Positions 209-63,931 of a stretch of DNA of 64,000 nucleotides are shown piece after piece. Below the pieces are notes generated by a model. It did no database searches. It saw nothing but the letters and a program-made list of their open reading frames with translations, and was not told the origin of the DNA. The translations under genes were made by a program, and so were the position numbers. Every line of letters starts with the position of its first letter. The stretch's first letter is position 1. The DNA comes from Ipomoea triloba (lineage: Eukaryota > Streptophyta > Magnoliopsida > Solanales > Convolvulaceae), in contig NC_044922.1 in the NCBI RefSeq assembly GCF_003576645.1, positions 16,823,839 through 16,887,838 of the forward strand. The letters are read 5' to 3'.

Positions 209-2784
209 ACTGTAACACCCCAACTTTCACATCCAGGATTTATTACAAAATCCCTAATGGTATACATCACAGCGGAAGCTAATAATTCAAAAAGCAGAAA
301 ACTGGGTGTTACCGCCACGCTTAGGTATCTCTCCTATACCCAAACGCACAGGCTAAACTTACAACATCAAAATACATCCAAAGTCCAACTTAATACAAGT
401 GGACATAATTCTTCCAAGGTGGCTATTCTAGGATCTCAACCTCAACCTCCATCCTATTCGGAGCTCATCGGCTACCTGAGCATACCCACACTAGACTTCA
501 TCTGATAAGGTACACAATGAAGTGTAGTTAGCGCGACGGCTAAGTAAGGATATCCATGATCACTCGAAAATAAACAAAGGTTTTCAAAATAATTATTCAA
601 CAAGAACAAGGTAAGATAACATTACCCAACAATCGCAATCAACCTGCAAACATTTTTAACAACAAGTAATTTCACTTCATTTCAGTAAATCGAGCAAATA
701 ACTCAGTCATTAATTCACCCGATGGTTAGCTCTCACACATCGCCCATGGTACACAATTCTCGCCTTACTCATAAGTGGGGTACGAAACACATCCACTATT
801 AGATCTCGGTGGGGTACACAACACATCCACCTTCCAACTCTCACGTGGGGTATAAAACACATCCACGTTTAACTCACGGTGGGGTACGAAACACAAAAAC
901 ACATCCACGTTTAACTCACGGTGGGGTACGAAACACATCCACCTTTAATTCACGAGTGGGGTACGAAACACGTCCACTATTAGATCTCGGTGGGGTACAC
1001 AACACATCCACCTTTCCAACTCTCACGTGGGGTACGAAACACATCCACGTTTAACTCACGGTGGGGTACGAAACACATCCACCTTTAACTCACGAGTGGG
1101 GTACGAAACACATCCACTATTAATTCATCACACGACTCCATCACCAATAACTCACTCAGATATATTTTCCCAACCCGCATACTTAGGTTAGTATTAGTCA
1201 CGTCACAGAAAATCAAGTATAGAGTCATAATAATTTTCAAAATATAATTATTTTCCATGTTAATATAATGCACCAAAAATAATATTTGTCAAAATTGTTT
1301 CTAACCATTCTTTTTCAGAAAATTTCAGCTTGGCGCAGTCCGAAAGATTGAGCCGGTAAAAATAGTTCCCGAACTCTTTTTCACTTGAAATTTTTATGGT
1401 AGGACCTTAACTCATAGTACTTGATGTTCATAAACAGTTTTGGTCATCAAGGTTCACGAATTATCACAGAAAATTCCATTTTTGCCCTTGGCAGTGTGCT
1501 GTCCAGAATTTTTCCTCTCTGGACCAGTTTTGGAAAAAAAATCGAAAACCATACTTATACTACTCCAAAAATTATGAAATTTTATATGAAGCTTCTACAC
1601 TTATAGAACTACATGTATAAAAAAAATTGGATCAAAATACCTTACCGATTTTTCCCAGAAATTCACGGAAGTCACTGCCAGAGACTAACTTGATTTTACT
1701 TCAATATTTTCACAAGTATAAGCCTATATGGGCATAAATCCAACATATACATGCATAAAATAGCTATGAACATGCATAACAAATTTATCAAAAATCAAAG
1801 CAAGGATTTTTGAAGCCAATTTATAGATCCATAACATAACACATAATCATCACGTAAAAATTCCTAACCGTATAATTTCCTAGCAATTGTCTATATCCAA
1901 GTGATTGAGCCAACTTAAGGGATTCCTTACCTCAATAGAAGCTTTTAAACCAAAGTAGTTGCTAGCTCCTTTCTTGAATTCAAAGACCTTAAGAATATTA
2001 TCACAATAACAATATTTTCATGCACTAAACATCAACACATGAATTCTAGAGATGATTTAATCCAACAAGGTTCAAGATCTTACCTACACTTGTACACTTG
2101 GGTTGGAAAAGCTTGGGAGCTCTTAGATCACAAAGGAGGACTAAATCTATTTTTTTTTTCTTCTTCCTAAGGGTGTAGCCGAAATGAGAGAGGGAGATAG
2201 GAGAGAGATGAGTGTGATCTTGTTTGATATTGTTCTTGAAGACCAAGCAATCAAGTACAAAGCCTCCATACCTCATTAATGTTACATTAAATGGCCAAAT
2301 CTTAGTCTAGGATTGGATTTGCCACATGTCAACACCCCATGGAGTCCTTACAAGATCTCAAATCTAATTTGCCAGTTTATGCTTAAATCAGATGAATGTT
2401 CGGAGGACTATAACTTAATTCGGGAAAATTCTAATACCAAAATTATCGTAAAAATATTCCCGTCACAAATCACCAATTTTGGGAATTTTTCGGTGTCCCG
2501 CTAAATTTAGGTACAGAGTCCGTAACAATTTATCCCTTACAGTCCATTGGAAGTTTTTCTTGAACTAACTAGAAATTCAGGCTTAATCGCATGATATTTA
2601 ATAATCCCAATTCTAGAAAATTCGAACTGAATCTATATCCTTAAAGTTTTCTCGGTTCGTGACAGGTACGTAGTTCGCAGCTTATCGATAACTAATCCTT
2701 AAGAGAAAAATTATTTCGAGCACCGAACAGTCTTCTCTTAAATGTCATAGCCCAAAAAAATTTTATAACGATATCCTCGAATCT
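209..2784. mobile_element. 2.6 kb insertion inside Sirevirus pol
   Basis: This block separates two parts of one copia polyprotein. The flanks share TAAC (205-208 and 2785-2788), a possible short target duplication. Removing the block with one TAAC keeps the protease frame open across the joint, reading N-L-T-L-S-E-K. The left end starts near TGTAACACCCC, a common start of plant LTRs, but I see no matching right terminus, so the class is unsettled: solo or non-autonomous LTR element is my first guess. It has no convincing coding region. It contains the tandem array at 775-1127 and is otherwise AT-rich. Confidence 0.6.
775..1127. repeat. Tandem array with GTGGGGTACGAAACACATCC core
   Basis: About ten monomers of 32-42 bp share the core GTGGGGTACRAAACACATCCAC. 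The spacer variants recur in order (TATTAGATCTC, CTTCCAACTCTCAC, GTTTAACTCAC, CTTTAATTCACGA), so a higher-order unit of about five monomers is repeated roughly twice. The open frame across it (809-1054) is a by-product of the repeat. It lies wholly inside the 2.6 kb insertion. Confidence 0.85.
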
Positions 2785-2788
2785 TAAC

Positions 2789-5700
2789 TTTGTCGGAAAA
2801 ACCGAGGGGTTACAACGAAGGTCCCTTGGTGACATTCGGAGACAATGAGAAGAAAGGACGCACAAAGGCTGTTGGTGAGATCTATAAGAATGAGTTGGTG
2901 AACAAGGAGGTATCCTACGTTGAAGGACTCAAGTTCAACCTCCTTAGCACAAGCCAATTCTTTGACAAGGGCTACAAAGTTATCTTCACCAAAGGCAAGT
3001 GCCAGATCATACAAGAGGAATCTCTCGAAGTCGTCCTAGAAGCAGCAAGGAAAGGAAACATGTACATAGTGGATTGGAGATATGCCAAACCATCCCTATG
3101 TATGCTAGCAAGGAGCAAAGAGGACTTATGCTGGGATTGGCATAGTAAGCTCAGTCACCTGAACATCAAAACTATCAACAAGCTTACTAAGAGGAACCTT
3201 GTGGAAGGACTGCCCAAAGTTACGTTTCGAAAGGACAAGATTTGTGAGGCATGTCAACGTTGCAAACAGATCAAATCCTCTTTCAAAACCAAAGCCGAGA
3301 CATCATCTACTAGACCATTAAGTCTTCTTCATATGGACTTATTTGGCCCGGTGGATCCACCCAGCATGAGAGGAAGAAAGTATACTCTTGTGGTAGTAGA
3401 TGACTACACAAGATTCACCTGGACTGTGTTCTTAACCAAGAAAAGCGAGACAAAAGTTGCCCTACCAAACCTTTTGAAGCAAGTTCAAGTTGAAAAGGAT
3501 GTCTCGATACTCAAGATTCGGTCAGATCAAGGTGGAGAGTTCGTTAACCAAGTGATCGAGAGCTACTGCAGTGAGAACGGGATTCATCATCAGTTGTCAG
3601 CTGCTCGAACACCTCAACAGAACGGCGTTGCTGAAAGGAGGAACAGTACTCTCAAGGAAGCTGCAATGACCATGCTCTCACAAGCCAACATATCACAAGG
3701 ATTTTGGGCAGAAGCAGTAAACACAACGTGCTATACCCAAAATCGGTCCTTGATCGTGAAAGGAGTCGGAAAGACTCCATATGAGTTGTAGAATGGAAGG
3801 AAACCTAATGTAAGCTACTTTCATACATTCGGATGCAAATGCTATGTCCACAACAATGGAAAGACTCAGTTAAGAGCTTTTGACGAAAAGGCAGACGATG
3901 GAGTATTTCTGGGATACTCATCGTCAAGTAAAGCCTTCAGAGTCTTCAATAAGCGGAGATTGGTGGTTGAGGAATCTATACATGTCTCTTTTGATGACGA
4001 AGCATCAGCTAATCAACCATCAAAGTCAATAGAAGCAGCTGAAAGTTCTGAGGAAGCTCAGCTGGAAACGATTGAGAGATCAGACTTACCTCTCGATGGG
4101 AAACAGCCGATAGTTCGAGACGTAGCAGAACTCCAGTCAGAATCAGACGATGAAGAGACTACAAAGAAAAATGCTCCTGACTCAGTTAATCCAATCCAGA
4201 TCATGGATGATCAACCCACATCCCAACCAACACTCGAGGAGTCAACTGAGGAGCCACAAACCGATCTAAGATGGCTGAGAAGTCATCCCGCTGATCAAGT
4301 GATTGGAGATATACGTGACAAAGTTCGAACCAGATCAGCATACAGAGAAAGCATGCTTGCTTGCTTTCTATCGCAAATAGAGCCTAAGGTGATTGATGAG
4401 GCTCTAAGCGATCCTGATTGGGTACAAGCCATGCAAGAGGAACTTCATCAGTTTGAGAGGAATGACGTTTGGGAACTGGTTCCGAGACCTCATCATCAGA
4501 ATGTCATTGGTACAAAATGGGTTTTCAGAAACAAGATGAATGAGGATGGAGTTATTGTTAGGAACAAGGCCAAACTTGTTGCTAAAGGATATTGCCAGGA
4601 GGAAGGAATAGATTTTGATGAAACCTTCGCTCCGGTAGCACGTCTCAAAGCCATTCGCATCTTTCTCGCTTATGCCGCCTTCAAAGACTTCAAAGTGTAT
4701 CAAATGGATGTCAAGAGCGCTTTTCTGAACAGACTTCTTGAAGAAGAGGTGTACGTTGAACAACCTCTGGGTTTCTTGAAGGACGTGGGAGCTGACAAAG
4801 TATACAAGTTGAAGAAGGCACTTTACAGCTTGAAACAAGCTCCGAGAGCTTGGTATGACACTTTATCCTGTTTTCTACTTCAGTGTGGGTTCACCAAAGG
4901 CCTAGTGGACAAAACATTGTTTAGAATTAAGGATGGAGATCATATCTTATTGGTGCAAATCTATGTGGACGATATCATCTTTGGAAGCACCAATCCAGAC
5001 TTGTGCGAGAAGTTCTCCAGTTTGATGAAAGGAAAGTTCGAGATGAGCATGATGGGAGAACTCAACTACTTCCTCGGACTACAAGTAAGACAACTTAAGG
5101 AAGGTATCTTCATCAACCAGGAGAAATACACCAAGGATCTGCTTAGGAAATACAATATAGAAGGGAAATCTTCAGTCAAAGTGCCTATGGGAACCTCTCT
5201 ACGCATCGATGTTGACAGTGAAGGCCGAGAGGTTGATCAAACTACGTATCGAGGTATCATCGGATCTCTTCTTTATTTAACTACTAGTAGACCAGATATA
5301 TCCTTTGCAGTAGGTGTATGTGCTAGATTTCAGGCAAGTCCTAAGGAAAGTCACTTAAATGCATCTAAAAAGATTCTTAGATATCTCAAGGGTACGCAAA
5401 GTGTTGGACTTTGGTATTCGAGAGGTGGATCTTTCGAACTTATGGGATATTCAGATGCGGACTTTGCCGGTTGTAAAATTGATCGTAAGAGCACATCTGG
5501 GACATGTCAGTTTCTAGGTGGAAGACTTGTCTCATGGTTTAGCAAGAAACAGCATTCGATAGCTACAAGTACCGCTAAGGCAGAATATGTAGCAGCTGGA
5601 AGTTGTTGTGCTCAAATTTTATGGATGAAGCAACAATTACTGGATTATAGTGTTGAATGTAAAGAGGTTAAGATTATGTGTGACAACACTAGTGCCATAG

Positions 5701-5906
5701 CTATTACTCAGAATCCGGTGTTACATTCAAGGACAAAGCACATTGACATAAAATATCACTTCATCCGAGACCACGTTGAGAAAAAGGATATAACTTTGGA
5801 ATATGTTGCAACGGAGGAGCAACTAGCAGATATTTTCACAAAAGCGTTATGTGAAAATAGATTCTCTCAACTAAGGTTAGAATTGGGAATGATAGAATTG
5901 GGTTGA
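2789..5906 (+). pseudogene. pol: Sirevirus (Ty1/copia) pol: integrase, RT, RNase H
   Basis: One frame encodes, in order, the end of protease, the integrase zinc finger (HSKLSH...CEACQRC) and the integrase core (MDLFGPV, VVVDDYTRF, the DQGGEF block, then TPQQNGVAERRN). A linker is followed by reverse transcriptase ([17 protein letters not shown], catalytic YVDDIIFG near 4963) and RNase H ([30 protein letters not shown]) ending at 5906. The domain order and the ADIFTKAL ending are typical of copia elements, and the downstream ORF and LTR type point to the Sirevirus lineage. One in-frame TAG at 3789-3791, where relatives have Trp before N-G-R-K-P, splits integrase from RT. The 2.6 kb insertion removes the link to gag. 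Apart from these breaks the frame is well kept, so the element is fairly young. Confidence 0.95.
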
Positions 5907-12767: not shown

Positions 12768-13640
12768 CTATTTGAACTGCTTCCAAGCCTCGTAGAAACT
12801 CTCATTGCCAAACTGCTGGAAATTCTGAATCTGTTTCTTGAGCTTAGCAGCCTTGGATAGAGGACAGTACTCCTGCATGAATGCCTTGTACAGCTGTTCC
12901 CAAGTAATGAAGTGATTGGCTAGAAAGGAATTCAGCCAACTCAAAGCTTGATATCTTAGGGAAAAAGGGAACAACCTCAGCTTGATGGCATCACTGGGAA
13001 TCCCATTCATCTTGATTGTTTGGCAGATCCTATCGAAGTGAACAACATGAGCCTTAGGATCATCAACCCGAGCACCTCCAAACTGATTAGCTTGGACCAT
13101 CCGAATCAGAGAAGTCTTCAGCTCGAAGTTATTCGCCTCCACTCCTAGATAAACAATGCAATCTTCCTCACCAAACTCAGGAGCTAAATGAGCTGCCATG
13201 GGTGGCTGACCACCCTGCTGGAACATAGGACGAACTCCCTGTGGAAACTGCTGGACAAAATGGTTGAACAGGTTGGGATTCATTTGGTAGAGAAGATTCT
13301 GCATCCCAACTCCCTGGCCCTGCTGCTGAAACGCAGGACGCTGCTGCATGTGAGGAACTCCCAATCCTTCCCCAACACAAGCATTCGGGTTCGGATTGGC
13401 TATGAAATTCTGTGCCTGATTCTGAACATTACGCATTGGAGGGTTGACACGAACTCCATGGTTTTCCCAAGTAACCTCTCTCTGCCTAGGATTTTGCTGT
13501 GTGTTGACATCATCATGAGCAAGCTACCCGGTGTTGCTATTGTCTCTGGTCTCCATGTCTACTTCGAAGTTCTGGAACTCTCGAAGCCACTCACGCAACA
13601 CCCTCATTTCCCTCCTTAAATTCCTCTAAAGGTCTCGATC
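12768..13640 (-). pseudogene. gag: Athila-like gypsy gag, element A (3'-truncated)
   Basis: The minus strand from 13436 down to 12768 encodes a Ty3/gypsy capsid domain. It has a Gln/Pro-rich N-terminus, EANNFELKTSLIRMVQ, then KAHVVHFDRICQTIKMNGIP, LRLFPFSLRYQALSWLNS and WEQLYKAFMQEYCP, the conserved core of plant retrotransposon gag. Upstream sequence to about 13640 carries the N-terminus in disturbed frames. The frame runs out at 12768, and about 70 bp of unassigned sequence separates it from the Sirevirus LTR. No zinc knuckle, protease or RT of this element is present, so its 3' part was lost. Confidence 0.85.
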
Positions 13641-17137: not shown

Positions 17138-18202
17138 CTAGGCATTCGTTGCCTCCATAGCATCCATCCTGTTATAAATCTGGTCGACCTTCTTGTTCAT
17201 GGCCGCCAGCTGCGCTAGAACCTGTTGCTGGAAATCTCCAGAAGAAGAGCCCTCGCCCGCCCCAACATGGGCGGGATCAACAACATCACGATGAACATCA
17301 TATGCCTCCTCCTCCATCCTCACATCAGTCACAGCAACAGTGCGGGCTCTCATAGCCCCAATCTTGTCACACATCCTCCAACAACCTCAGTTGTCAGAGG
17401 CTGCATGCCCGGAGACTTGGGCCCAACCAAAATGATCTGCTGCGTAGCCCTAAGGAGCCGAGTAAGGTAAGGACCCAAGTACAGAGCCACTCCCCTCAGC
17501 TGATACTGATTCTTGAAGAAGCTCCAGATAACCACACCCATATATATTAACTCGCAAGTGCCTGATCATGCCATATAGACATAGCATGTCAGCGTTGTTG
17601 ACGGAGCTGGTGGCATCGTACCGCCCACAAACGGAGTGACTGAGAACATAGTGCATAAACCTATGCTCCCTCTTGATGCATGATATGGAACGGCTATGGG
17701 AGCTACTAAACTCCGATGTACCACCCGTGAGTTCCTCCCAAAATGCTTGGGTGTTCCCCACGTTTGTGTCCCGGTTCTCCCTTTCCTCCTCTGTGAGCTG
17801 CTGTATCGGCCCGAAGCCCATCAACTCACTGATCTCGTCTGGACTTAATCTGAACATGGTGTGGTCCACATAGAAGGTCATACAGGGGCTGCAAGTGAGC
17901 CCATCAAACTTGGGAAGCTTCATGGTCGTCATGACCTCCACTAGCACAGCGGGGTAGGTGTCCTCATTGAAATCCATCAATAAGTACCTCCACTCTGGGA
18001 GGGACACCAACTCCTCCACCTCCTCTCTAATGCCAAAGTGCTCCGCTACATCCAAGGAGATGATGTATGACTGAAAAACCCGTCTTTCTGAAAAGAACTT
18101 GAAACGGTCAAAATTCTTCGGGTCATGGAGTGGTGTGGTCACCGGCTGTGCAGCCAGAGCAGGCTTTTGTGCAATTGATTTCTTTCTAGGACGGGGAGGC
18201 AT
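17138..18202 (-). pseudogene. Athila env-like ORF, element J
   Basis: The minus strand starts MPPRPRKKS at 18202, directly after a TTTGTTTGTAG acceptor-like site. It encodes a protein of the Athila ORF1/env-like family: a basic N-terminus, an ERRVFQSYIISLD block, a FNEDTYPAVLVEVMTTMK block, then FRLSPDEISELMGFGPI and a C-terminal coiled coil (QQVLAQLAAMNKKVDQIYNRM). The frame shifts near 17545 (the native continuation LRGVALYLGPYLTRLL is in another frame) and again near 17365. No transmembrane helix is evident. The gene sits between an upstream leader (18203-18880) and the PPT. No gag, protease or pol of this element is seen to the right. Confidence 0.75.
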
Positions 18203-28095: not shown

Positions 28096-29255
28096 GAATA
28101 TTATCATGAGAGGAATTTAATTACGTACATTAACATAATATATTAATATTTTTTAATACTATAATATACATCATATAGTAATTTTATTGTGGAAATTTTT
28201 ATTTTTTTTTGAATATTATCATGAGAGGACTTTAATTACGTACATTAACATAATATAGTAATATATTTTTAATACTATAATATACATCGTATAGTAATTT
28301 GATTGTTGGAATTTTTATTTTTTTCAATATTATCATGAGAGAAATTTAATTACGTACATTAACATAATACAGTAATATTTTTTTGAATAATATAATATAC
28401 ATCATATAGTAATTTGATAGTTGGAATTTTTTTTGAATATTATCACGAGAGAAATTTAATTATGTACATTAACATAATATAGTAATTTTTTTGAATACTA
28501 TAATATACATTTTATAGTAATTTCATTGTTTGCGAATATAAAATAAAAAATACGCAAGATTAAAATATTTTGAACCATAATTGAATTGCATGATATATTA
28601 TCATGAGATGAGTTTAATTACGTACATTAACATAATATTGTAATATTTTTTAATACTATAATATACATCATATAGTAATTTGATTTTTGAAATTTTTATT
28701 TATTTTTTAATATTATCATGAGATGAATTTAATTACGTACATTAACATAATATACTAATATTTTTTTTTGAATACTATAATATACATCATATAGTAATTT
28801 GATTGTTGGAAGTTTTTTTTTAATATTATCATGAGAGGAATTTAATTATGTACATTAACATAATATAGTAATTTTTTTTAATACTATAATATACATCATA
28901 TCGTAATTTGATTGTATACGAATATAAAAAAAAATACGCAAGATTAAAATATTTTGAACCATAATTGAATTGCATGGTATATTATCATGAGAGGAATTTA
29001 ATTATGTACATTAACATAATATAGTAATATATTTTTTGAATACAATAATATACATCGTATAGTAATTTAATTGTTGGATTTTTTTTGAATATTATCATTT
29101 GAGGAATTTAATTACGTATATTAACATAATATAGTAGTATTTTTTTGGAATACTATAATATAGATCATATAGTAATTTGATTGTTGGAATTTTGTTTTTT
29201 GAATATTCTTATGAGAGGAAATTTAATTACGTACATTAACATAATATAGTAATAT
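28096..29255. repeat. Ten-unit tandem array directly upstream of peptide gene 1
   Basis: The block ATTATCATGAGAGGAATTTA plus ATTACGTACATTAACATAAT recurs ten times, starting near 28102, 28219, 28329, 28440, 28600, 28715, 28826, 28983, 29092 and 29207. Spacing is about 110-117 bp, except for two long units of about 160 bp (from 28440 and 28826) that carry an extra TACGCAAGATTAAAATATTT block. The long units are 386 bp apart, which suggests a three-monomer higher-order unit. The array stops about 20 bp before the TATA box of the first peptide gene. Confidence 0.9.
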
Positions 29256-29263
29256 TTTTTTTG

Positions 29264-29382
29264 ATCTTGTAGGCAGTTTAGTGCTATAAATAGGGAAAAA
29301 GTGTCCTATAATCTCATTCCATCTGATTTCTAATTAAAAGCAATTCATTCATCCCATCCAAAAAAAAAATCCTTTCTTCGAA
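29264..29382 (+). promoter_or_regulatory. Core promoter and 5' UTR, peptide gene 1
   Basis: CTTGTAGGCAGTTTAGTGC leads to TATAAATA at 29285-29292. The ATG at 29383 is about 90 bp downstream. The same block, with the same spacing, lies before copies 2, 3 and 5 and as a remnant at copy 4. Conservation starts at the CTTGTAG block; sequence further upstream differs from the other copies. Confidence 0.75.
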
Positions 29383-30027
29383 ATGGCATTCAAAATCTTG
29401 TGGTGTGCTCTCCTTCTTTCCCTAATTGCATTTTGTAAGTCCAATCCTTTTTTTTTTCTTTAGAATACTAACCTCTGCGTTGGAGTTTCAATTTTTTTAG
29501 GGAGTTTACGTAGTGTAAATGTAATGTATGAGTGAACGTGCACTCCTGTATGGAAAAACCAATATGTCCAGCACGTTGCCCCTTAATTAGGCTGGCTCAG
29601 TGCGAATGAGAATTAGTGTGAGTATAGTACGGGTTTAAAGGTGTCTTCTACAATTAAAGCATGCTCAGAACACCTCAGGACCAATAGTTATATTGTGGAC
29701 TACGGTCCACAGTAAAATTTGCTCCTCAGGACATCTCGTGGTCTAACCAAAATAAAATTACAAACTGTGATTGTATGCAACTCATTGTTCAGAGATAAAA
29801 AACTAATGATTAAAGGTTTGGCAGGCACATCACCCACGATGGTTGATGGGTGCAATTGCAAGCACAATTGGTGCTTGGATGATCACCAATGTGACCATTC
29901 ACAACCTTGCGGTTGTGACAAAATTGTACACATTTGCGCCTGTCCTGTTCAACCACACGCGAATAATCTCGGCTATAGTAGCGATAAAGATTGTAATCAT
30001 CCTCATCATCTTGGACTTACAAAGTAA
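29383..30027 (+). CDS. Secreted Cys/His-rich peptide, copy 1 (two exons)
   Basis: I do not recognise the family. Exon 1 (29383-29434) encodes MAFKILWCALLLSLIAF, a hydrophobic signal peptide. It ends T|GTAAGT (phase 1). Exon 2 (29825-30027) follows TTTTGGCAG-type sequence (here GGTTTGGCAG) and restores TGC (Cys) at the joint, then encodes about 67 residues ending LGLTK and TAA. The product is 84 residues. The mature part has cysteines in the order C-x-C-x4-C-x5-C-x5-C-x-C-x6-C-x-C-x16-C, plus the Cys at the exon joint, and eight His residues, several next to Asp (DDH, DH). The three C-x-C pairs recall metallothioneins, but the signal peptide argues for secretion. Other possibilities are an antimicrobial or signalling peptide. 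Splice sites are canonical and match copies 2 and 3. The intron (390 bp) carries a SINE relic. Confidence 0.8.
29500..29680 (+). repeat. tRNA-type SINE relic in intron of copy 1
   Basis: In the introns of copies 2, 3 and 5 this region contains GGTCGGGAGTTCGAATCC, a tRNA B-box-like sequence, after an A-box-like stretch, as expected of a tRNA-derived SINE. Copy 1 lacks about 40 bp including the B box; the gap falls between two CTTGT repeats. The shared position shows that the SINE predates the gene duplications. Confidence 0.55.
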
Positions 30028-30196
30028 ACCTACAACATCCAAAATAATTTTACATTAGCTACAATAGTAATCCCAAAAAATATCTAAGTTAGTTTCATAT
30101 ATATTGGGGATTTTCATTTTCTATGTAATTCATGGTGTTTGAATAAATATAATATGGATGTTACTGGTTAACGAGATATCTTGGGATTGTTGAATA

Positions 30197-30296
30197 AATA
30201 TAATATTGGATGTTACTGGTTAACGAGATGTCTTGGGGTTTGAACTCCCGATCTCTCTTAAGGAAGAAGAGTGCATGACCACTCACGCCAACCAAA
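30197..30296 (-). mobile_element. tRNA-derived SINE downstream of copy 1
   Basis: On the minus strand TTGGCGTGAGTGGTCATGCA is an A-box-like start and CGGGAGTTCAAACCCC a B-box-like stretch about 35 bp later. It lies in the conserved downstream part of the duplicated unit, so it was duplicated with the gene. Confidence 0.55.
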
Positions 30297-31027
30297 TTGG
30301 TTACTGGATGTTAATGATTTGATGATCAATATTTCATATAACAAATATTTCTCTCCCTTATTAATCGATGTTACTATATTCTATGAAAAATTATTTTAAT
30401 AGGAAATTAATTATCTCAATTACGTTCGGTAGAAATGGCATAAGATTTGGAAAAAAGTGATATAAATAGGTATTAAAAGAGAATTAATTATTTTTGACTG
30501 AAATCATTTAAATGCTTTGCAAAGTTGGATTGACGTAATTCAAAACCAATTCCGCCGAAAAATTTTTAACGATAGGACCAAATGTGACACAAATTGAATA
30601 GTCATGCATCTACTTTGAAGATGTTAATAGCCAAAGACCAAATGTGATATAAATTGAATAATCATGCACCTAATTTAAAAATCTTGATAGTCAATAACCA
30701 AAATTGATATATGTATAAAAATGATATTTTCTCTTTTTGAATCTATTCACTTGGGACAAACATGCCCTTTGGACTAAAATAAAATAATACTAGTTAAATT
30801 TAATGAGTTGTGTTCATATTTATATTTATATATCTTGTATTATTATTGATATTGTTATTGTTATTACTAGATAATTCAGGAATCAAAAGTGAAAATCTCT
30901 CTAATATCTTTTTTATAGAAAATAATTCAATGCTAATATAATAAGGTAAGCATAGTTTTGGAAAAAAACTATTTTGTTTAGAATTGAATTAGTGCTTACC
31001 ATATATACCAATTTGGGCTGTTAATCT
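30297..31027. other. Spacer between peptide genes 1 and 2
   Basis: No gene. Blocks such as CAATATTTCATATAACAAAT and GGAATCAAAAGTGAAAATCTC recur in the copy 3-4 spacer (33900-34440), and the latter also before copy 5 (63032). They form the ancestral upstream region that copy 1 lacks. Confidence 0.7.
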
Positions 31028-31140
31028 TGTAGATAGTTTAGTGCTATAAATAGGGAAAAAATGTCCTATAATCTCATTCCATCTGATCTCTAATTAAAAG
31101 CAATTCAGTGAACCCATCCAAAAAAAATCCTTTCTTCGAA
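31028..31140 (+). promoter_or_regulatory. Core promoter and 5' UTR, peptide gene 2
   Basis: TATAAATA at 31045-31052 in the same context as copy 1; ATG at 31141. Upstream sequence (from about 30860) is the ancestral type shared with copies 3, 4 and 5. Confidence 0.75.
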
Positions 31141-31822
31141 ATGGCGTTCAAAATCTTGTGGTGTGCTCTCCTTCTTTCCCTAATTGCATTTTGTAAGTCC
31201 AATCCTTTTTTTTTTCTTTAGAATACTGACCTCTACGTTGGTGTTTCAATTTTTTTAGGGAGTTTACGTAGTGTAAATGTAATGTATGAGTGAACGTGCA
31301 CTCTTGTCCCTAAAGAGAGGTCGGGAGTTCGAATCCTCTCTTGTATGGAAAAACTAATATGTCCAGCACGTTGCCCCTTAATTGGGCTGGCTCAGTGCGA
31401 ATGAGAATTAGTGTGAGTATAGTACGGGTTTAAAGGTGTCTTCTACAATTAAAGCATGCTCAGAACACCTCAGGACCAATAGTTATATTGTGGACTGCGG
31501 TCCACAGTAAAATTTGCTCCTCAGGACATCTCGTGGTCTAACCAAAATAAAATTACAAACTGTTATTGTATGTAACTCATTGTTCAGAGATAAAAAACTA
31601 ATGATTAAAGTTTTGGCAGGCACATCACCCACGATGGTTGATGGGTGCAATTGCAAGCACAATTGGTGCTTGGACGATCACCAATGTGACCATTCACAAC
31701 CTTGCGGTTGTGACAAAATTGTACACATTTGCGCCTGTCCTGTTCAACCACACGCGAATAATCTCGGCTGTAGTAGCGATAAGGATTGTAATCATCCTCA
31801 TCATCTTGGACTTACAAAGTAA
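31141..31822 (+). CDS. Secreted Cys/His-rich peptide, copy 2 (two exons)
   Basis: Exon 1 is 31141-31192 and exon 2 is 31620-31822, with the same phase-1 GTAAGT donor and TTTTGGCAG acceptor as copy 1. The 84-residue product differs from copy 1 at a single residue: Tyr to Cys in the NLG[C]SSDKDC stretch, adding one cysteine. The other coding differences I see are three silent changes (GCA/GCG, GAT/GAC, AAA/AAG). The intron keeps the full SINE-like B box near 31328. Intact by inspection and, with copy 1, the best candidate functional gene in the window. Function unknown; likely extracellular, disulphide-rich or metal-binding. Confidence 0.8.
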
Positions 31823-32031
31823 ACCTACAACATCCAAAATAATTTTACATTAGCTACAATAGTAATCACAAAAAATATCTAAGTTAGTTTCATATATATT
31901 GGGGATTTTCATTTTCTATGTAATTCATGGTTGTTGAATAAATATAATATTGGATGTTACTGGTTAACGAGATGTCTTGGGACTTGGGATTGTTGAATAA
32001 ATAATATTGGATGTTACTGGTTAACGAGATG

Positions 32032-32056
32032 NNNNNNNNNNNNNNNNNNNNNNNNN
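32032..32056. other. Assembly gap (25 N)
   Basis: The gap lies in the spacer between copies 2 and 3. The unit there is about 500 bp shorter than the copy 1-2 unit and lacks the downstream SINE and part of the upstream block, so sequence, and possibly whole copies, may be collapsed. Confidence 0.95.
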
Positions 32057-32381
32057 TATTTATATTTATATATCTTGTATTATTATTGATATTGTTATTG
32101 TTATTACTAGATAATTCAGGAATCAAAAGTGCAAATCTCTTGAATATCTTTTTTATAGAAAATAATCAAATGCTAATATAATAAGGTAAGCATAGTTTTG
32201 GAAAAAAACTATTTTGTTTAGAATTGAATTAGTGCTTACCAAATATACCTATTTGGGCTGTTAATCTTGTAGACAGTTTAGTGCTATAAATAGGGAAAAA
32301 GTGTCCTATAATCTCATTCCATCTGATCTCTAATTAAAAGCAATTCAGTCATCCCATCCAAAAAAAAATCCTTTCTTCGAA

Positions 32382-33031
32382 ATAGCGTTCAAAATCTTGT
32401 GGTGTGCTCTCCTTCTTTCCCCAATTGCATTTTGTAAGTCCAATCCTTTTTTTTTTCTTTAGAAAACTGACATCTGGGTTGGAGTTTCAATTTTTTTAGG
32501 GAGTTTATGTAGTGTAAATGTAATGTATGAGTGAACGTGCACTCTTGTCCCTAAAGAGAGGTCGGGAGTTCGAATCCTCTCTTGTATGGAAAAACCAATA
32601 TGTCCAGCACGTTGCCCCTTAATTGGGCTGGCTCAGTATGAATGAGAATTAGTGTGAGTATAGTACGGGTTTAAAGGTGTCTTCTACAATTAAAGCATGC
32701 TCAGAACACCTCAGGACCAATAGTTATATTGTGGACTGCGGTCCACAGTAAAATTTGCTCCTCAGGACATCTCGTGGTCTAACCAAAATAAAATTACAAA
32801 CTGTGATTGTATGTAACTCATTGTTCAGAGATAAAAAAACTAATGATTAAAGTTTTGGCAGGCACATCACCCACGATGGTTGATGGGTGCAATTGCAAGC
32901 ACAATTGGTGCTTGGACGATGACGATTGTGACCATTCACAACCTTGCAGTTGTAACAAAATTGTACACATTTGCGCCTATCCTGTTCAACCACACGCGAA
33001 TAATCTCGGCTATAGTAGCGATAAGGATTGA
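32382..33031 (+). pseudogene. Secreted Cys/His-rich peptide, copy 3 (dead)
   Basis: Homologous to copies 1 and 2 with TATAAATA at 32285-32292, exon 1 at 32382-32433 and exon 2 from 32862. The start codon is ATA (32382-32384) with no other ATG in exon 1. The signal peptide has Leu to Pro. Exon 2 has Cys to Tyr in the CAC motif and changes DDHQC to DDDDC. The frame ends at TGA (33029-33031), before the last cysteine. Splice sites are still present. Several independent lesions show a pseudogene; a translated form starting from an internal ATG in exon 2 would lack a signal peptide. Confidence 0.9.
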
Positions 33032-33068
33032 AATCATTCTCATCATCTTGGACTTACAAATTAAACCT

Positions 33069-33656
33069 AGGGATGGCAATTTCAATCCGCCTCGTGGATA
33101 TTCACCCGAATCTACTCCGCATGGATCGGGTTTTTTTGGTTGATAGTGGATGGTGGATCGGGGATGGGTCTTAAAAAAGTAAACTCGCGGTGGGTCGGGT
33201 TGGATTCGGCTTCTATGTACAAAACCCGCCTAGAACCCCACCCGACCCACCATGTGTGTGTATGTATATATATAATAGTAAAATAAGTACTAGTATGTAG
33301 TTTATTATCAAAGTTTCTATAACTTTTTAGATTTAAACAATTAAGTTTATTTTTAAAAATTAACAATTTAGTTATTATATTTGGATATTTTTATTATTTT
33401 TTGTTTTAGTATAACTAATGAATTTTTTTATTTTATTATGTGTAAGTAATTTAAATATTAATTATTAAAAAATATGAATAAGATGATAAGTGGTGGGTAC
33501 CCGAGTGGGCACCCGCACCCGGTGGGGGTGGGGATGAATTCTAAAAAAGTCCACCCGATGCGGGTTGAGGGTGGGGGTGGGTGGAGAAAATATAAGGTGG
33601 GTCGGGTGATGGATGTAGCCCTCCCCGACCCACACCCGACCCATTGCCATCCCTAA
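33069..33656. mobile_element. hAT-like MITE (588 bp) in 3' region of copy 3
   Basis: AGGGATGGCAAT at the left end is matched by ATTGCCATCCCT at the right end. The flanks carry TTAAACCT at 33061-33068 and 33657-33664, an 8-bp target duplication as made by hAT transposases. The interior is rich in GGGTGGGTCGGG-type repeats on both arms with an AT-rich centre. It sits a few bases after the ancestral stop codon of copy 3 and separates it from its old downstream region. No coding capacity. Confidence 0.88.
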
Positions 33657-34380
33657 TTAAACCTACAACATCAAAAATAATTTTACATTAGCTACAATAG
33701 TAATCATGGTTGTTGAATAAATATAATATTAGATGTTACTCGTTAACGAGATGTCTTGGGGTTGTTGAATAAATATAATATTGGATGTTACTGGTTAACG
33801 AGATGTCTTGGGGTTTGAACTCCCGATCTCTCTTAAGGAAGAAGAGTGCATGCCCACTCATGCTAACCAAATTTGGTACTGGATGTTAATGATTTGATGA
33901 TCAATATTTCATATAACAAATATTTCTCCCTTATCAATCGATGTTACTATATTCTATGAAAAATTATTTTAATAGGAAATTAATTATCTCAATTATGTTT
34001 TGTAGAAATGGCATAAGTTGGATTGACGTAATTCAAAACCAGTTCCGTCGAAAAAATTTTAACGATAGGACCAAATGTGATATAAATTGAATAGTCATGC
34101 ACCTAATTTAAAAATCTTGATATTCAATAACCAAAATTGATACATGTATAAAAATGATATTTTCTCTTTTTGAATCTATTCACTTGGGCCAAACATGCCC
34201 TTTGGATTAAAATAAAATAATACTAATTAAATTTAATGAGTTGTGTTCATATTTATATTTATATATCTTGTATTATTATTGATATTGTTATTGTTATTAC
34301 TTGATAATTCAGGAATCAAAAGTGAAAATCTCTCTAATATCTTTTTATAGAAAATAATTCAATGCTAATTTAATAAGGTA
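33657..34380. other. Spacer downstream of copy 3, with SINE
   Basis: Continues the gene-unit 3' region after the MITE. GTTTGAACTCCCGATCTCTC (33812 onward) is the same minus-strand SINE seen after copy 1. The rest repeats the copy 1-2 spacer. No gene. Confidence 0.7.
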
Positions 34381-34533
34381 AGCATAGTTTTGGAAAAAAA
34401 AATTATTTTGTTTAGAATTAAATTAGTGCTTACCAAATATACCAATTTGGACTATTAATCTTGTAGGCAGTTTAGTGCTATAACTAGGGAAAAAGTGTCC
34501 TATAATATTATTCCATCAGATCTCTAATTAAAA
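34381..34533 (+). pseudogene. Promoter remnant of a fourth peptide gene copy
   Basis: The upstream block and core promoter of the gene unit are present, but the TATA box reads TATAACTA (34479-34486). Homology stops in the 5' UTR near 34533, before any ATG. Both exons are missing, replaced by unrelated sequence. Confidence 0.8.
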
Positions 34534-47355: not shown

Positions 47356-49411
47356 ATATTTCCTCTTCAACCATGTAATAACACTTTTCCCAACTCAATG
47401 CAAGGTTTACTTCCTGACACCTAACCATTACCTTTTGTAGATTTTTAAGGCATTGCTCAAAAAGTTTCACCCCAAATGGTGAAGTCATCCATAAAGACCT
47501 CCATGAAGTCTCCTATGTAATCCGCAAAAATAGCTATCATACACCTCATGAAAGTGGCAGGTGCATTACACAAGCCAAATGGCATGCGTCTGTATGCAAA
47601 AGTCCCAAAAGGGCAGGTGAAAGTGGTATTTTCTTGATCTTCTAAAGCCACGGGGATTTGGAAATATCCACTCATCTCGTCTAGAAAGCAATAAAACCCA
47701 TGGCCACTAACCCTCTCTACCATTTGGTCAATGAAAGGTAGGGGAAAATGGTCTTTACGGGTGGCATCATTCAATCTCCTGTAGTCAATACAGACCCGCC
47801 AACCTGTGACCTTCCTAACGGGAATCAGTTCATTTTTTTCATTGGTCTCAACGGTGATCCCCCCTTTCTTTGGCACAACATGGGTCGGACTCACCCAAGC
47901 ACTATCAGAAATGGAATAAATCATCCTTACATCTAAGAGTCTGACTACCTCATTTTTCACAACCTTCTTCATATTGGGTTTAATCTTTTTTTTAGGTTGT
48001 GCTACAGGCTTAGCTTCGTCCTCTAAAAGGATCTTATGAGTACACAAAGCGGGACTAATCCCCTTCAAGTCACCTAATTTCCACCCAATTGCCCCTTTAT
48101 TCTTTTTCAACACCCCCACAAGTCTATTCTTTTGATCCTCCTCCAGTGAGGATGAAATCACCACTGGAAGTGTAGAATCCTCACCCAAAAATACATATTC
48201 TAAGTTCTCGGGTAAAGGTTTAAGCTCACTCTCCGCACCACTTTCTTCCATTCCTCCTTCTTGTTTTTCTTTCGCATTATCAGCCACTAATGCAACCCTT
48301 TTCAATCCAACCATTTCCTCCTCAACTTCACCATTCATATCACAACAAGCATTATCATTTTCAACAACAGAAATAGCATCATAAGCAAAAGGATCAACAT
48401 CATTCACCATACAAGAATCAACATTGTCAAACTCATCAACATCCAAAGATTCATCATTTACACAACTAAGAAGATCATTATCAACAAATTCATCATTCTT
48501 TTCACAACAAGCAATATTAGTGCCCCAACTAAACATATCAAACTGTTTTCTACTTTTCACATCTAAAATCAAATTAGGCACTACAGAATCAATGTGGTTA
48601 TGCAAGATGTCAACAAAATATAACAAGAATCATCAGCAGACATGGGGTATTTTGTCAATTTAGACACGTCAAAACTAGCACACTCGTCACCAACACGAAT
48701 GACTAGTTTCCCACTCCCAACATCAATAAGTGTCCTTGTAGTTGCCAAAAAATGGCCTACCAAGGATAAGTGGCACCTCAATGTCAGGATCCATGTCTAA
48801 AATGACAAAATCCACAAGAAAGATAAACTTATCTACTCTAACCAACACGTCCTCAACAATCCCCCTAGGATGCTTAATGGACCGATCAGCCAATTGAATG
48901 CAAATACGTGTTGGTTTAAGATTACCCAAATCTAACTTCTTAAACAGATAAAAATGCATAAGATTTATACTTGCACCTAAGTCGGCCAATGCCTTATGAA
49001 AATCAGTTTCACCTATTTGGCAAGGAATTGTGAAGTTCCCTGGATCCTTCAATTTTTGTGGCAAGTCCTTATGTACCATTGCTGAACACTCCTCACTAAG
49101 TACCACAGTGGTTGATTCCCCCAGTTTCTTTTTATTGGTGAGGAGGTCCTTCAAAAACTTTATCTTGGCATCTGGCCCAGAGCATCTACAAAAGGCATAT
49201 TAATATGCAATTGTTTCAAAAGGTGCAGAAACTTACCATACTGAGTTTTGTCTTCATTTTTCTTCAACCTCCCAGGATAGGGAAGTGGTGGCTTGTAAAC
49301 TGGAACATCCACCTTTTCCTTGCCTTTTTCTAAGGCTTTCTCAGCATGTAGACATGCGGGTGTAGCTGTGCTAGTGTTCTGTTCTGCATTCTCATCAACA
49401 TGGATTTTCAC
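47356..49411 (-). pseudogene. pol: Element O (gypsy): protease and partial RT
   Basis: Minus strand, reading from high to low. A linker (PPLPYPGRLKKNEDK...LHINMPFVDALGQMP) is followed by the aspartic protease with ALADLGASINLM and PLILGRPFF (49154-48723). A spacer leads into reverse transcriptase with WRVCIDYRRLND, DEMSGYFQI, FGLCNAPATFMRCM and catalytic VFMDDFTIWG. RT stops near 47356 after LALSWEKCYYMVEE, where the F-family LTR begins. Frames shift near 49157 and in the protease-RT spacer. The rest of RT, RNase H, integrase and the 3' LTR are absent. The protein type is Athila/Tat-like Ty3/gypsy. Confidence 0.9.
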
Positions 49412-53595: not shown

Positions 53596-54834
53596 TCACT
53601 GATCACCGAAGGAGGGAGGGTGGAACTGGCTATCAAATCTAGCCTCAAGCTCTGCAATTCTTCTCTCATTTTCCTCCACTGCTCTTCTCATGCGATTAAG
53701 CTCTTCAGTGTGGACGTCTTGCCTCGCAGATATGGATGTAAAGTGGCCTTCCTGCCACGTGCGCTGCTCGTGCCAATAATTCATTTGTTCATTGTGGAGC
53801 TGCCTGTGGAAGGTCTGAGTCGTTTCCCAATCCATTGAAGCATGGCCTTGCTCCTTCGCAGCTTCGTCCTCCTCATTCTCTTCATTCTCGGTAGTATCAT
53901 CAGAAGCTTCTAAATCTGGCGCATCATCACCTCCCAGCCTCAAATTCATGGCAAAGAACTCACCAACGGAGAAAGCAATCATGGTACCTTCATCCTTTTC
54001 TCCCATCAGAAGGTCTGTAAGGCCCAACCCGTGGCACAATCTTGTAACAAAAGGTTCAATGAAACTAGTCTGAACCTTAGGCTTCAGTTGGGTTTGGAGC
54101 CATTTTCTTGCTTGCACGCCCATGTGGATTTCCACTTCATTCTCCATGCACCACATATAAAACAAATCTTGTTTATAGACCTTGTTGCGATTGGTGGTTC
54201 TGCCGGAGAGATTCACTGCAAAGGCTAATCTAATAGCCTTTAAAGCATTCCTGGTGATGAGATTTGCCTTGAGGTTTGATGAATTGTAAGGGGCATTGTT
54301 GGTGATGCTCCTCCAATACTGAATAGCAACAGCTTCTGAATCAAAATCTTCTTTAAACTCTCTGAAATACGGCATAGAGACGCTCACAGCATCATGGAAT
54401 CCAAGCATAACACCTAAAGTGTTAACTGACAAACTGTTGTGGTTGCCAAACAGTCGGAATGAAATGGACTCTCTCGCATTGTTAACTTCTTTTCGAATTT
54501 CTAGTGTCGCCAAAAATTCATATGTGACTGGCGCGAATATAGGTCTTCTCCACTCGAATAGACGGCGGAGCTGTCAGTGCCTTATAAGTCCATTCACCTC
54601 ATTTAAACAACCAAATTCTGCTAAAACATTGTCATCGAAGAAACGGCCGACTGATAGCTGCTTCCCCTTATAATTATCCACCGAGGTCAGCTGAATGGGT
54701 GTCAAGTGTCTTAGCGACCTTGAACCTCGCTCCTGGGGAGCTTGTTGAACGGCAGCCTGTGGTCGTGCTCGTGATCTGCTGGATTCACCGTGATCATATT
54801 TGGTTTTCTTTGCAATTTCTTTAGATCGTCCCAT
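53596..54834 (-). pseudogene. Athila env-like ORF, element E
   Basis: The minus strand starts MGRSKEIAKKTKYD at 54834, one base after a TTTGTAG acceptor-like site. It has a basic N-terminus, a VNGLIRH block then a TGA (about 54571-54573), and in the same frame PIFAPVTYEFLATLEIRKEV, ISFRLFGNHNSLSVNTLGVM and LGFHD. An acidic stretch (TTENEENEEDEAAKEQ) leads to a C-terminal coiled coil (ELNRMRRAVEENERRIAELE). The EFLATL and LG-F motifs place it in the Athila ORF1/env-like family with the ORF at 17138-18202. It is about 413 codons long. There is no clear signal peptide or membrane helix. The single stop makes it non-functional as read. Confidence 0.8.
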
Positions 54835-62067: not shown

Positions 62068-63156
62068 TTTTAGATATTATTTACAAAATTATAAATATTG
62101 TTAAACATTTAAAATTAGTAATAGTTATAAATTAGTATATTTTAAATAGCAGTATTTTAAATTAGGTAAAATATTATTGAGTGCTGCAACTGGATGTGCG
62201 TGTGTAATATTTATATTTATATTTATATAAAAATGCGATTACCAATAAATTACGTTATTACCGTGAGAATGGTATAATTTATGGCAACTGGGAGAATTAG
62301 GTATAATTTGTGAAATTGGAAACAATATTACCAATTAATAGATATTAATTAATTTCCATACAATATTTTCTTACCAATTAAACTTTATTAATTATTTTAC
62401 CAATAAATTATTAAAATTAAAGAGGAGGATTTTATTTTTATAGATAGATCGATTAATAATTAATAATTAATAATAAGATAATAGAATGTATAGATTAATT
62501 AATTTATTATTGTACACTAAATTTATTAAATATTAAATGTTATACGATTATTAAATATTAAATATATTTCCTCAAAATTAATTTTCATTCCTTATCCTAG
62601 TTTATTTATTGATGTTTTTAATAGACACCATTTAAGAATGAATATATTCTATATTTATTGTTCATATATCAATTACTTGGTAGAATGGTAATGATCTCCT
62701 AGCATATTTTTAAAATATTATAATTATTACGCATAATAATTTATAGGAACTGGATGTGCGTGTGTTAATAACGTACTATTGATGTTATTAACGTGATTTT
62801 GTAAAGAATAAAATAAATGATTATTTCCTTATTGGTGTAAACTTATTGGAAACAATATTACCAATTAATAGATATTATTTAATTTTCAAATAATTTTTTT
62901 TAAATTAAACTTTATTAATTATTTTACCAATAAATTATGTAATTAATATTAACAAAATTTTGAGCGGAAAAATTTGTGAGGAAGATTTTACTTGTATATA
63001 TAGTATAGATATAGATTACTAGTTAATTTAGGAATCAAAAGTGCAAATCTCTCTAATATCTTTTTTATATAATAAGGTAAGCATAGTTTTGGAAAAAAAT
63101 TATTTTGTATAGAATTGAATCTGTGCTTACCAAATATACCAATTTTGGTTGTTAAT
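62068..63156. other. AT-rich, direct duplication; upstream of copy 5
   Basis: No gene. A block starting CAACTGGATGTGCGTGTG (about 62187) recurs at about 62750, with GGAAACAATATTACCAATTA and TTTACCAATAAATTA following in the same order. This is a diverged direct duplication about 564 bp apart. From about 63028 the sequence is the ancestral upstream region of the peptide gene unit. Confidence 0.65.
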
Positions 63157-63853
63157 CTTGTAGGCAGTTTAATGCTATAAATAGGAAAAAAGTGTCCTAT
63201 AATCTCATTCTATCTGATCTCTAATTAAAAGCAATTCAGTCATCCCGTCCAAAAAAAAATCCTTTCTTCGAAATGGCATTCAAAATCATGTGGTGCGCTC
63301 TCCTTCTTTCCCTAATTGCATTTTGTAAGTCCAGTCCATTTATTTTCTTTAGAATACTATCCTCTGCGTTGGAGTTTCAATATTTTTAGGGAGTTTACGT
63401 AGTGTAAATGTAATGTATGAGTGAACGTGCACTCTTGTCCCTAAAGAGAGGTCGGGAGTTCGAATCCTCTCTTGTATGAAAAAACCAATATGTCTAGCAC
63501 ATTGCCCTTTTTTTTTCTGAGTACTACTGACTCTGTTACAATGTATTATCTGTTCGTAGCTACTTTCTTAACCTACTGAAGCACAAAGAGTCACCAGTCG
63601 CCTACACTGAGGCTCGAACCCACTCCCCTCCATGTGGGAGTGTAAACCGGGTGCCACTAATTGGGTTGGCATAGTGCGAATGAGAATTAGTGTGAGTATA
63701 GTACGGGTTTAAAGGCATGCTCAGAACACCTCAGCACCAATAGTTATATCGTGGACTGCGGTCCACAGTAAAATTTGCGCCTTAGGACATCTCGTGGTCT
63801 AACCCAAAATAAAATTACAAACTGTGATGGTATGTAACTCATTGTTCGGAGAT
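63157..63853 (+). pseudogene. Secreted Cys/His-rich peptide, copy 5 (exon 1 and partial intron)
   Basis: The core promoter has TATAAATA at 63176-63183. Exon 1 (63273-63324) is open, encodes MAFKIMWCALLLSLIAF (one change, Leu to Met, from copy 1) and keeps the T|GTAAGT donor. The intron is homologous to the others until about 63853, where it switches to the AT-rich sequence found upstream of copy 1. Exon 2 is not in the window: either it lies beyond 64000 after an insertion, or it was lost. A SINE is inserted in the intron. Confidence 0.75.
63507..63655 (-). mobile_element. SINE inserted in intron of copy 5
   Basis: About 150 bp are present here and absent from the introns of copies 1-3. On the minus strand it begins AGTGGCACCCGGTTTACACT (A-box-like), has GTGGGTTCGAGCCTC (B-box-like) and ends in an A run (plus-strand TTTTTTTTT at 63509-63517). 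This is the structure of a tRNA-derived SINE. Confidence 0.75.
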
Positions 63854-63931
63854 GAAAAGAGAACGAAAATAATAACTATAATACATATCTACATATTGAA
63901 TCATCTTTAATGACTCTAAAAAGAATAGAGA

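Follow-up and report, generated by a model that had tools for sequence, protein, structure and literature searches.

The question raised by the 64,000-nucleotide stretch of Ipomoea triloba DNA analyzed here (contig NC_044922.1, positions 16,823,839 to 16,887,838; the whole stretch is called the window below) is what kind of gene has been multiplied in tandem within about 5 kb of it, where a small, apparently secreted peptide rich in cysteine (Cys) and histidine (His) recurs. An earlier interpretation made from the letters alone (the sequence-only reading) described four like units, each with a TATA box and a two-exon structure. We consider it likely, at a probability of roughly 65%, that the locus represents a tandem array, young and decayed in part, of a two-exon gene for a small secreted Cys-rich peptide of the defensin-like kind, belonging to a family that was found here only in Ipomoea. 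This family is best filed as new and unnamed, yet within a known kind, the plant defensin-like two-exon Cys-rich peptides.

Two intact two-exon genes are present in the window, unit 1 and unit 2, with spans of 29383-30027 and 31141-31822, respectively. Their gene models come from splicing the exons of the sequence-only reading, and the splicing itself is read from the DNA and from two related proteins (described below) in which the two exon products are joined. When spliced, each unit has 84 codons plus a stop; the introns, of 390 and 427 bases, lie in phase 1, with the donor GTAAGT, the acceptor GGCAG and, some 20 bases before the latter, a CTAAT stretch. Unit 3, like units 1 and 2, has kept its splice sites intact. 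By contrast with this part of the four-unit description, which stands, the other two units turned out to be broken. Unit 3 has the layout of units 1 and 2 but is a pseudogene, having lost its start codon (ATG to ATA), acquired the replacements L14P and C57Y, and gained a stop at codon 74. Unit 4 is a promoter fragment in which the TATA box TATAAATA is replaced by TATAACTA, and tblastn found no coding part for it within the window. Of the four noted units, accordingly, only two are genes; unit 3 counts as a pseudogene and unit 4 as a fragment of a promoter.

The arrangement of units 1 and 2, as read from the DNA, has the single intron and the split between signal peptide and mature peptide that characterize plant two-exon cysteine-rich peptide (CRP) genes. 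In the account of the SPADA classes, such genes carry the leader in exon 1 and the mature part in exon 2, and both leader and Cys layout are conserved within a sub-class (PMC3924332); tandem copies are described as common among clustered CRP genes (PMC5557327). An even set of Cys in a shared fixed spacing, also typical of such peptides, is found in unit 2 and both related proteins, with unit 1 (nine Cys) as the exception. What differs from the plant two-exon CRPs is the Cys spacing itself, which fits no Pfam family.

The two related proteins are the only relatives that we recovered from about 5.8 billion proteins. Both are annotated as 'hypothetical protein' in Ipomoea batatas, P0001 (Iba_chr07bCG10490) and P0002 (Iba_chr07aCG9780), and their names point to sweet potato chromosome 7. 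The queries were unit 2, an alignment of units 1 and 2 with P0001 and P0002, and P0001, at E-values (E) up to 10; the search works on shared 5-residue words, had 3, 5 and 2 candidates for these queries, respectively, and would overlook any relative in which the Cys frame alone is kept. Unit 2 was matched across its exon junction by the two sweet potato proteins with E of 4.9e-17 and 3.0e-12, and the exon-2 part of P0001 alone (residues 19-73) matched unit 2 at 45% identity (E 1.8e-14, calculated for the 64-kb window; filters and composition correction were switched off). This search with the 84-residue product, which the sequence-only reading had suggested as a check, gave two unnamed Ipomoea relatives.

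Other collections were largely silent. No Pfam family, including defensin, snakin, hevein and metallothionein, matched units 1 and 2 at E up to 10, NCBIfam had no match for unit 2 or P0001, and no PDB chain matched unit 2. The matches that did occur were three in NCBIfam for P0002, all below cut-off, one PDB chance match for P0001 (E 0.78), and, in Pfam, sub-threshold matches of P0002 to Phospholip_A2_1 (E 0.021; 15.8 bits, cut-off 32.1) and EGF_3 (E 4.8). A scan of viral contigs gave 30 pattern matches with no relative among them. In the literature, no paper was found for the leader start MAFKILW or for the accession and locus names of the relatives, and the six-Cys motif of the peptide, or its first part, occurred in no plant paper of the library searched, the sole match being a crustacean venom table. 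Within the reach of the word-based protein search, these results support an unnamed Cys-rich peptide family that may be restricted to Ipomoea. Membership in the late nodulin, defensin, snakin, hevein or metallothionein families was set aside, given that units 1 and 2 have no Pfam match.

The build of the peptide may explain why its Cys spacing looked unfamiliar. Counted from Cys27, the predicted mature part has 58 residues with nine Cys in unit 1 or ten in unit 2, eight His and three C-x-C pairs, in agreement with the earlier count. The 18-residue signal peptide proposed before is one option only, and a cut before Cys27 would be another: V-x-G stands directly before Cys27 (VDG, VVG, VAG) in the window peptides and both relatives, a motif in keeping with a cut there under the -3/-1 rule. 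Units 1 and 2, P0001 and P0002 have their first 22 residues in common, and the remainder differs greatly. In P0001 the leader is followed by two modules, each with the spacing C-x5-C-x5-C-x-C-x6-C-x-C, which are alike at 11 of 25 positions; their identity outside the Cys was equalled in 32 of 20000 shuffles. The window peptide has one whole six-Cys module (Cys34-Cys57; gaps 5, 5, 1, 6, 1); when the 58 residues of unit 2 that begin with Cys27 were shuffled, this exact spacing arose in 3 of 200000 trials. Ahead of the module stand seven extra residues bearing a C-x-C pair, and after it come the linker QPHA, a C-x5-C stump of a second module, and the tail PHHLGLTK. P0002 is the mirror case, with a first module that lacks its C-x-C half, a whole second module and the tail PRHLGLTN, although it is a gene model in which the gap could be an annotation fault. 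Unit 2 and P0002 each contain one full module and a C-x5-C stump.

Taken together, these comparisons suggest that the family is built on a signal peptide and, after it, two modules of the spacing C-x5-C-x5-C-x-C-x6-C-x-C, and the nine or ten Cys of the window peptide would therefore reflect this plan, short of one half-module and with an additional C-x-C pair. The earlier remark that the spacing matches no familiar family is borne out, and one module, an extra C-x-C pair and a stump would account for it. The same six-Cys module occurs in unit 2, P0001 and P0002, whose totals from Cys27 on are 10, 12 and 8 Cys, respectively (9 in unit 1). With its leader MAFKILWCALLLSLIAFCTSPT, six-Cys module and QPHA linker, the window peptide has what the two sweet potato proteins share, and P0002 shares the HLGLT tail as well; it differs from them in its missing half of module 2 and its seven extra residues; in P0001 both modules are whole, and in P0002 half of module 1 is missing. 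The two-module form is probably ancestral, a direction of change that we infer.

Several observations weigh against this interpretation. Cys aside, the identity of the window module to either P0001 module does not exceed that of shuffled sequences (2544 and 1541 of 20000 reached it), and the window module is only somewhat like that of P0002 (613 of 20000), so the case for homology would depend on the shared leader, linker and tail, together with the spacing and the flanking G-C-N. Two AlphaFold2 models, built from four-row alignments, are of low confidence (pLDDT 54.9 and 50.4); both show short paired strands at the C-x-C...C-x-C stretches, which at most suggests a short hairpin there. Only one or two copies are intact, and position 68 is Tyr in units 1 and 3 rather than the Cys found in unit 2, P0001 and P0002, leaving unit 1 with an odd number of Cys; because of this scarcity and the Tyr of unit 1, the cluster may be dying.

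The divergence among the copies belongs with these difficulties. Units 1 and 2 differ by four coding changes, three of them silent and one a Tyr68/Cys exchange, a recount that agrees with the sequence-only reading and gives P = 0.04 when a silent share of 0.231 is expected (transition/transversion ratio 2). The constraint on the protein that had been hinted at from these changes does not survive the inclusion of unit 3, and the argument was set aside: units 2 and 3 differ by 12 coding changes, none silent (0 of 11 without the start codon; P = 0.056, in the opposite direction), and when the stop is also omitted and codons 38-39 are counted as one, 0 of 8 are silent (P = 0.12). Coding and intron divergence do not differ significantly, whether between units 1 and 2 (4/255 and 10/390, Fisher P 0.58) or between units 2 and 3 (12/255 and 10/427, Fisher P 0.12). 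Part of this divergence may have occurred in the lineage that led to units 1 and 2, because D39 (before a Cys) and N49 (after a C-x-C) of unit 3 match P0001 and its N84 is the last residue of P0002. The statistics give no clear constraint, and we make no firm statement on selection.

These findings are what could be expected if the units were dying relics that no longer have a function, with tandem copies multiplied through unequal exchange in a region of transposon activity. Units 3 and 4 are defective, a Cys of unit 2 and the relatives is missing from unit 1, an AT-rich array occupies the place upstream of unit 1 at which the remaining units have DNA in common, many nearby open reading frames (ORFs) are retrotransposons, and divergence does not differ significantly between coding and intron sequence. 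However, unit 2 is intact with all ten Cys, splice sites are whole in units 1, 2 and 3, and units 1 and 2 keep the first 22 residues of the sweet potato proteins in an otherwise divergent sequence, a pattern that would not be expected of relics. We therefore regard decay as the whole explanation as unlikely, and the young, partly decayed cluster of a secreted peptide gene as the better account.

The age of the copies is illuminated by a fifth unit, at 63015-63858, which was overlooked in the sequence-only reading and was found by Blast of unit 2 against the window. Its exon 1 is intact, and its homology ends just short of the expected exon 2; the window itself closes with a TA repeat. The intron of unit 5 differs from those of units 1-3 at 38 of 371, 38 of 408 and 40 of 408 positions (9-10%), compared with 10/390, 12/390 and 10/427 (2-3%) among units 1-3 themselves, and unit 5 is therefore older than units 1-3. 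Its intron is interrupted by an insertion of about 150 bases (approximately 63511-63657) that units 1-3 lack. The introns of units 2, 3 and 5 carry a tRNA-like stretch, GAGGTCGGGAGTTCGAATCCTCTC (e.g., around 31317-31340 and 63448-63471), that is absent from unit 1 and that we take to be a possible remnant of a short interspersed nuclear element; transfer RNA (tRNA) and Rfam scans of the window gave no match and did not find it.

Could the wealth of His and Cys point to metal? The sequence-only reading had proposed a possibly lineage-restricted secreted family that is disulphide-rich or metal-binding, and its secreted and unnamed character, together with the Ipomoea-only relatives, found support, whereas the metal-binding part was weakened. 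A secreted metal-binding Cys/His peptide would fit the eight His and nine or ten Cys among the 58 mature residues of the window copies. However, P0001 has only 3 His and P0002 only 4, three of the eight His of the window peptide lie in an NHPHH stretch where the second module is missing, and no Pfam family, metallothioneins included, matched units 1 and 2. Because of this difference in His number, metal binding does not appear to be a family trait and was set aside as the family function; as an explanation of the window peptides themselves, it is quite improbable.

A place among the late nodulins, or NCR peptides, would be suggested by other features. NCR peptides begin with the same C-x5-C and end with the same C-x-C as the window peptide, and differ from the window module in the spacing of their middle Cys. 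Like the peptides studied here, late nodulin/NCR peptides (PF07127) are described as combining a relatively conserved signal with a divergent mature part and few fixed Cys (PMC6056668), and both relatives have weak matches to the Pfam model Nodulin_late. These matches, however, reach 7.2 bits (P0001, E 9) and 10.1 bits (P0002, E 1.1) against a cut-off of 30.4 and lie partly over the signal peptide, units 1 and 2 have none, and the relatives come from Ipomoea, not from a legume. It is, therefore, very improbable that these genes belong to the family. The six Cys of knottin-like peptides, given with gaps of 3, 5, 5, 2 and 6-13 (PMC8198727, where the letters C are lost from the text), are spaced differently from those of the window module. 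The C-x-C-x6-C-x-C end recurs in xibalbin 1, a cystine-knot venom peptide of a remipede, which has adjacent CC, another first part and an animal origin (PMC5577568); convergence is, at most, what this likeness indicates.

Since the only relatives come from Ipomoea, another known system to be weighed is the anther-expressed AB2 group at the self-incompatibility locus of that genus, or a pollen-side recognition ligand of such a kind. According to the description available for Ipomoea trifida, AB2 proteins are secreted, have 70-80 residues and eight conserved Cys, and are polymorphic among S haplotypes (PMC13033167). The comparison relies on this description, and P0002, with 83 residues and 8 Cys from Cys27, comes close to it; the locus is also rich in retrotransposons. 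However, there are 9 or 10 Cys in the window copies and 12 in P0001, and no AB2-named protein was among the protein-search results, within the reach that the word filter allows. An AB2 identity is improbable on these grounds, and we return to the reading of a secreted defensin-like peptide of a separate family.

How such a peptide might act can be proposed only in outline. The signal peptide would come largely from exon 1 and the mature peptide from exon 2; after splicing in the plant, the product would be secreted, would fold through disulphides into one small hairpin-bearing module, and would bind, outside the cell, to a protein of a microbe, an insect or a mating partner. Typical antimicrobial peptides are cationic, unlike the window peptide, for which we calculate a net charge at pH 7 from Cys27 of about -1.6 and an isoelectric point of 6.4 in units 1 and 2 (-1.1 in P0001, -1.0 in P0002). 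A leader that does not change, a mature part that varies within its Cys frame, and a slightly negative charge point to a target-binding peptide, either an inhibitor or a ligand, more than to a membrane-breaking one. Defense is the most likely use, at somewhat less than even odds, and reproduction comes next, with a chance of half that size or slightly more. A promoter scan of five upstream stretches was not informative, yielding no GCC box and a single W-box match, on the reverse strand and in unit 2 only.

A more specific and rather doubtful proposal is that these are Ipomoea-specific recognition peptides in which new forms arise behind an unchanging leader, through the gain of a short Cys-bearing insert and the in-frame loss of half of either module. 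If this were true, the Cys frame itself, beyond the loops alone, would be what varies, possibly for mating or pathogen recognition.

The coordinates of the units and of the element next to unit 3 are collected in Table 1.

Table 1. Units of the peptide gene cluster and an adjoining element, in window coordinates.
Feature	Position	Strand	Remarks
Unit 1, TATA box	29285..29292	+	Long homology with unit 2 extends upstream only to about 29261
Unit 1, exon 1	29383..29434	+	Predicted to encode most of the signal peptide
Unit 1, exon 2 including stop	29825..30027	+	9 Cys from Cys27; Tyr68 in place of the Cys of unit 2 and the relatives
Unit 2, upstream region and 5' leader	30636..31140	+	TATA at 31045; partly common to units 3, 4 and 5
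Unit 2, exon 1	31141..31192	+	Predicted to encode most of the signal peptide
Unit 2, exon 2 including stop	31620..31822	+	10 Cys from Cys27
Unit 2, full six-Cys module Cys34-Cys57	31667-31738	+	
Unit 3, exon 1	32382..32433	+	Pseudogene; start codon lost
Unit 3, exon 2	32862..33064	+	Premature stop at codon 74 (ends 33031)
Element with terminal inverted repeats	33069..33654	.	Ends AGGGATGGCAAT; lies just beyond the former stop codon of unit 3
Unit 4, upstream DNA and part of 5' leader only	34069..34533	+	TATA altered (34479)
Unit 5, upstream DNA and 5' leader	63015..63272	+	TATA at 63176
Unit 5, exon 1	63273..63324	+	Intact; reads MAFKIMWCALLLSLIAF; GTAAGT donor
Unit 5, intron, partial	63325..63858	+	About 150-base insertion; no exon 2 in the window

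Between units 2 and 3 there is a run of 25 N (32032-32056), and the junction of the two units is therefore an assembly gap. The AT-rich repeat array upstream of unit 1 occupies 28098-29261, with a spacing of about 108-159 bases. The element that follows unit 3 is about 586 bp long, starts four bases past the old stop codon, and has the ends AGGGATGGCAAT/ATTGCCATCCCT with a repeated ATTAAACC at its edges; from its look it is presumably hAT-like.

The window has 31 ORFs of 120 codons or more, and ten of these were scanned. Six of the ten were above Pfam cut-offs for families of retrotransposon type (integrase, two kinds of reverse transcriptase, gag, and ATHILA twice), three had no match and one had a sub-threshold match, and no ordinary gene was recognised among the ten. 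Retrotransposon-type ORFs lie at 2769-5906, 12768-13523, 17450-18202, 47457-48629 and 53596-54573.

Small two-exon Cys-rich peptide genes are described as often escaping gene prediction (PMC3924332). The locus supplies a two-module plan for the family and a testable pair of relatives whose names lead to sweet potato chromosome 7. If the genes prove to be expressed in anthers or upon attack, they would provide a new Ipomoea peptide for the study of pollination or defense; if they are silent, the cluster would be a clear example of how such genes decay.

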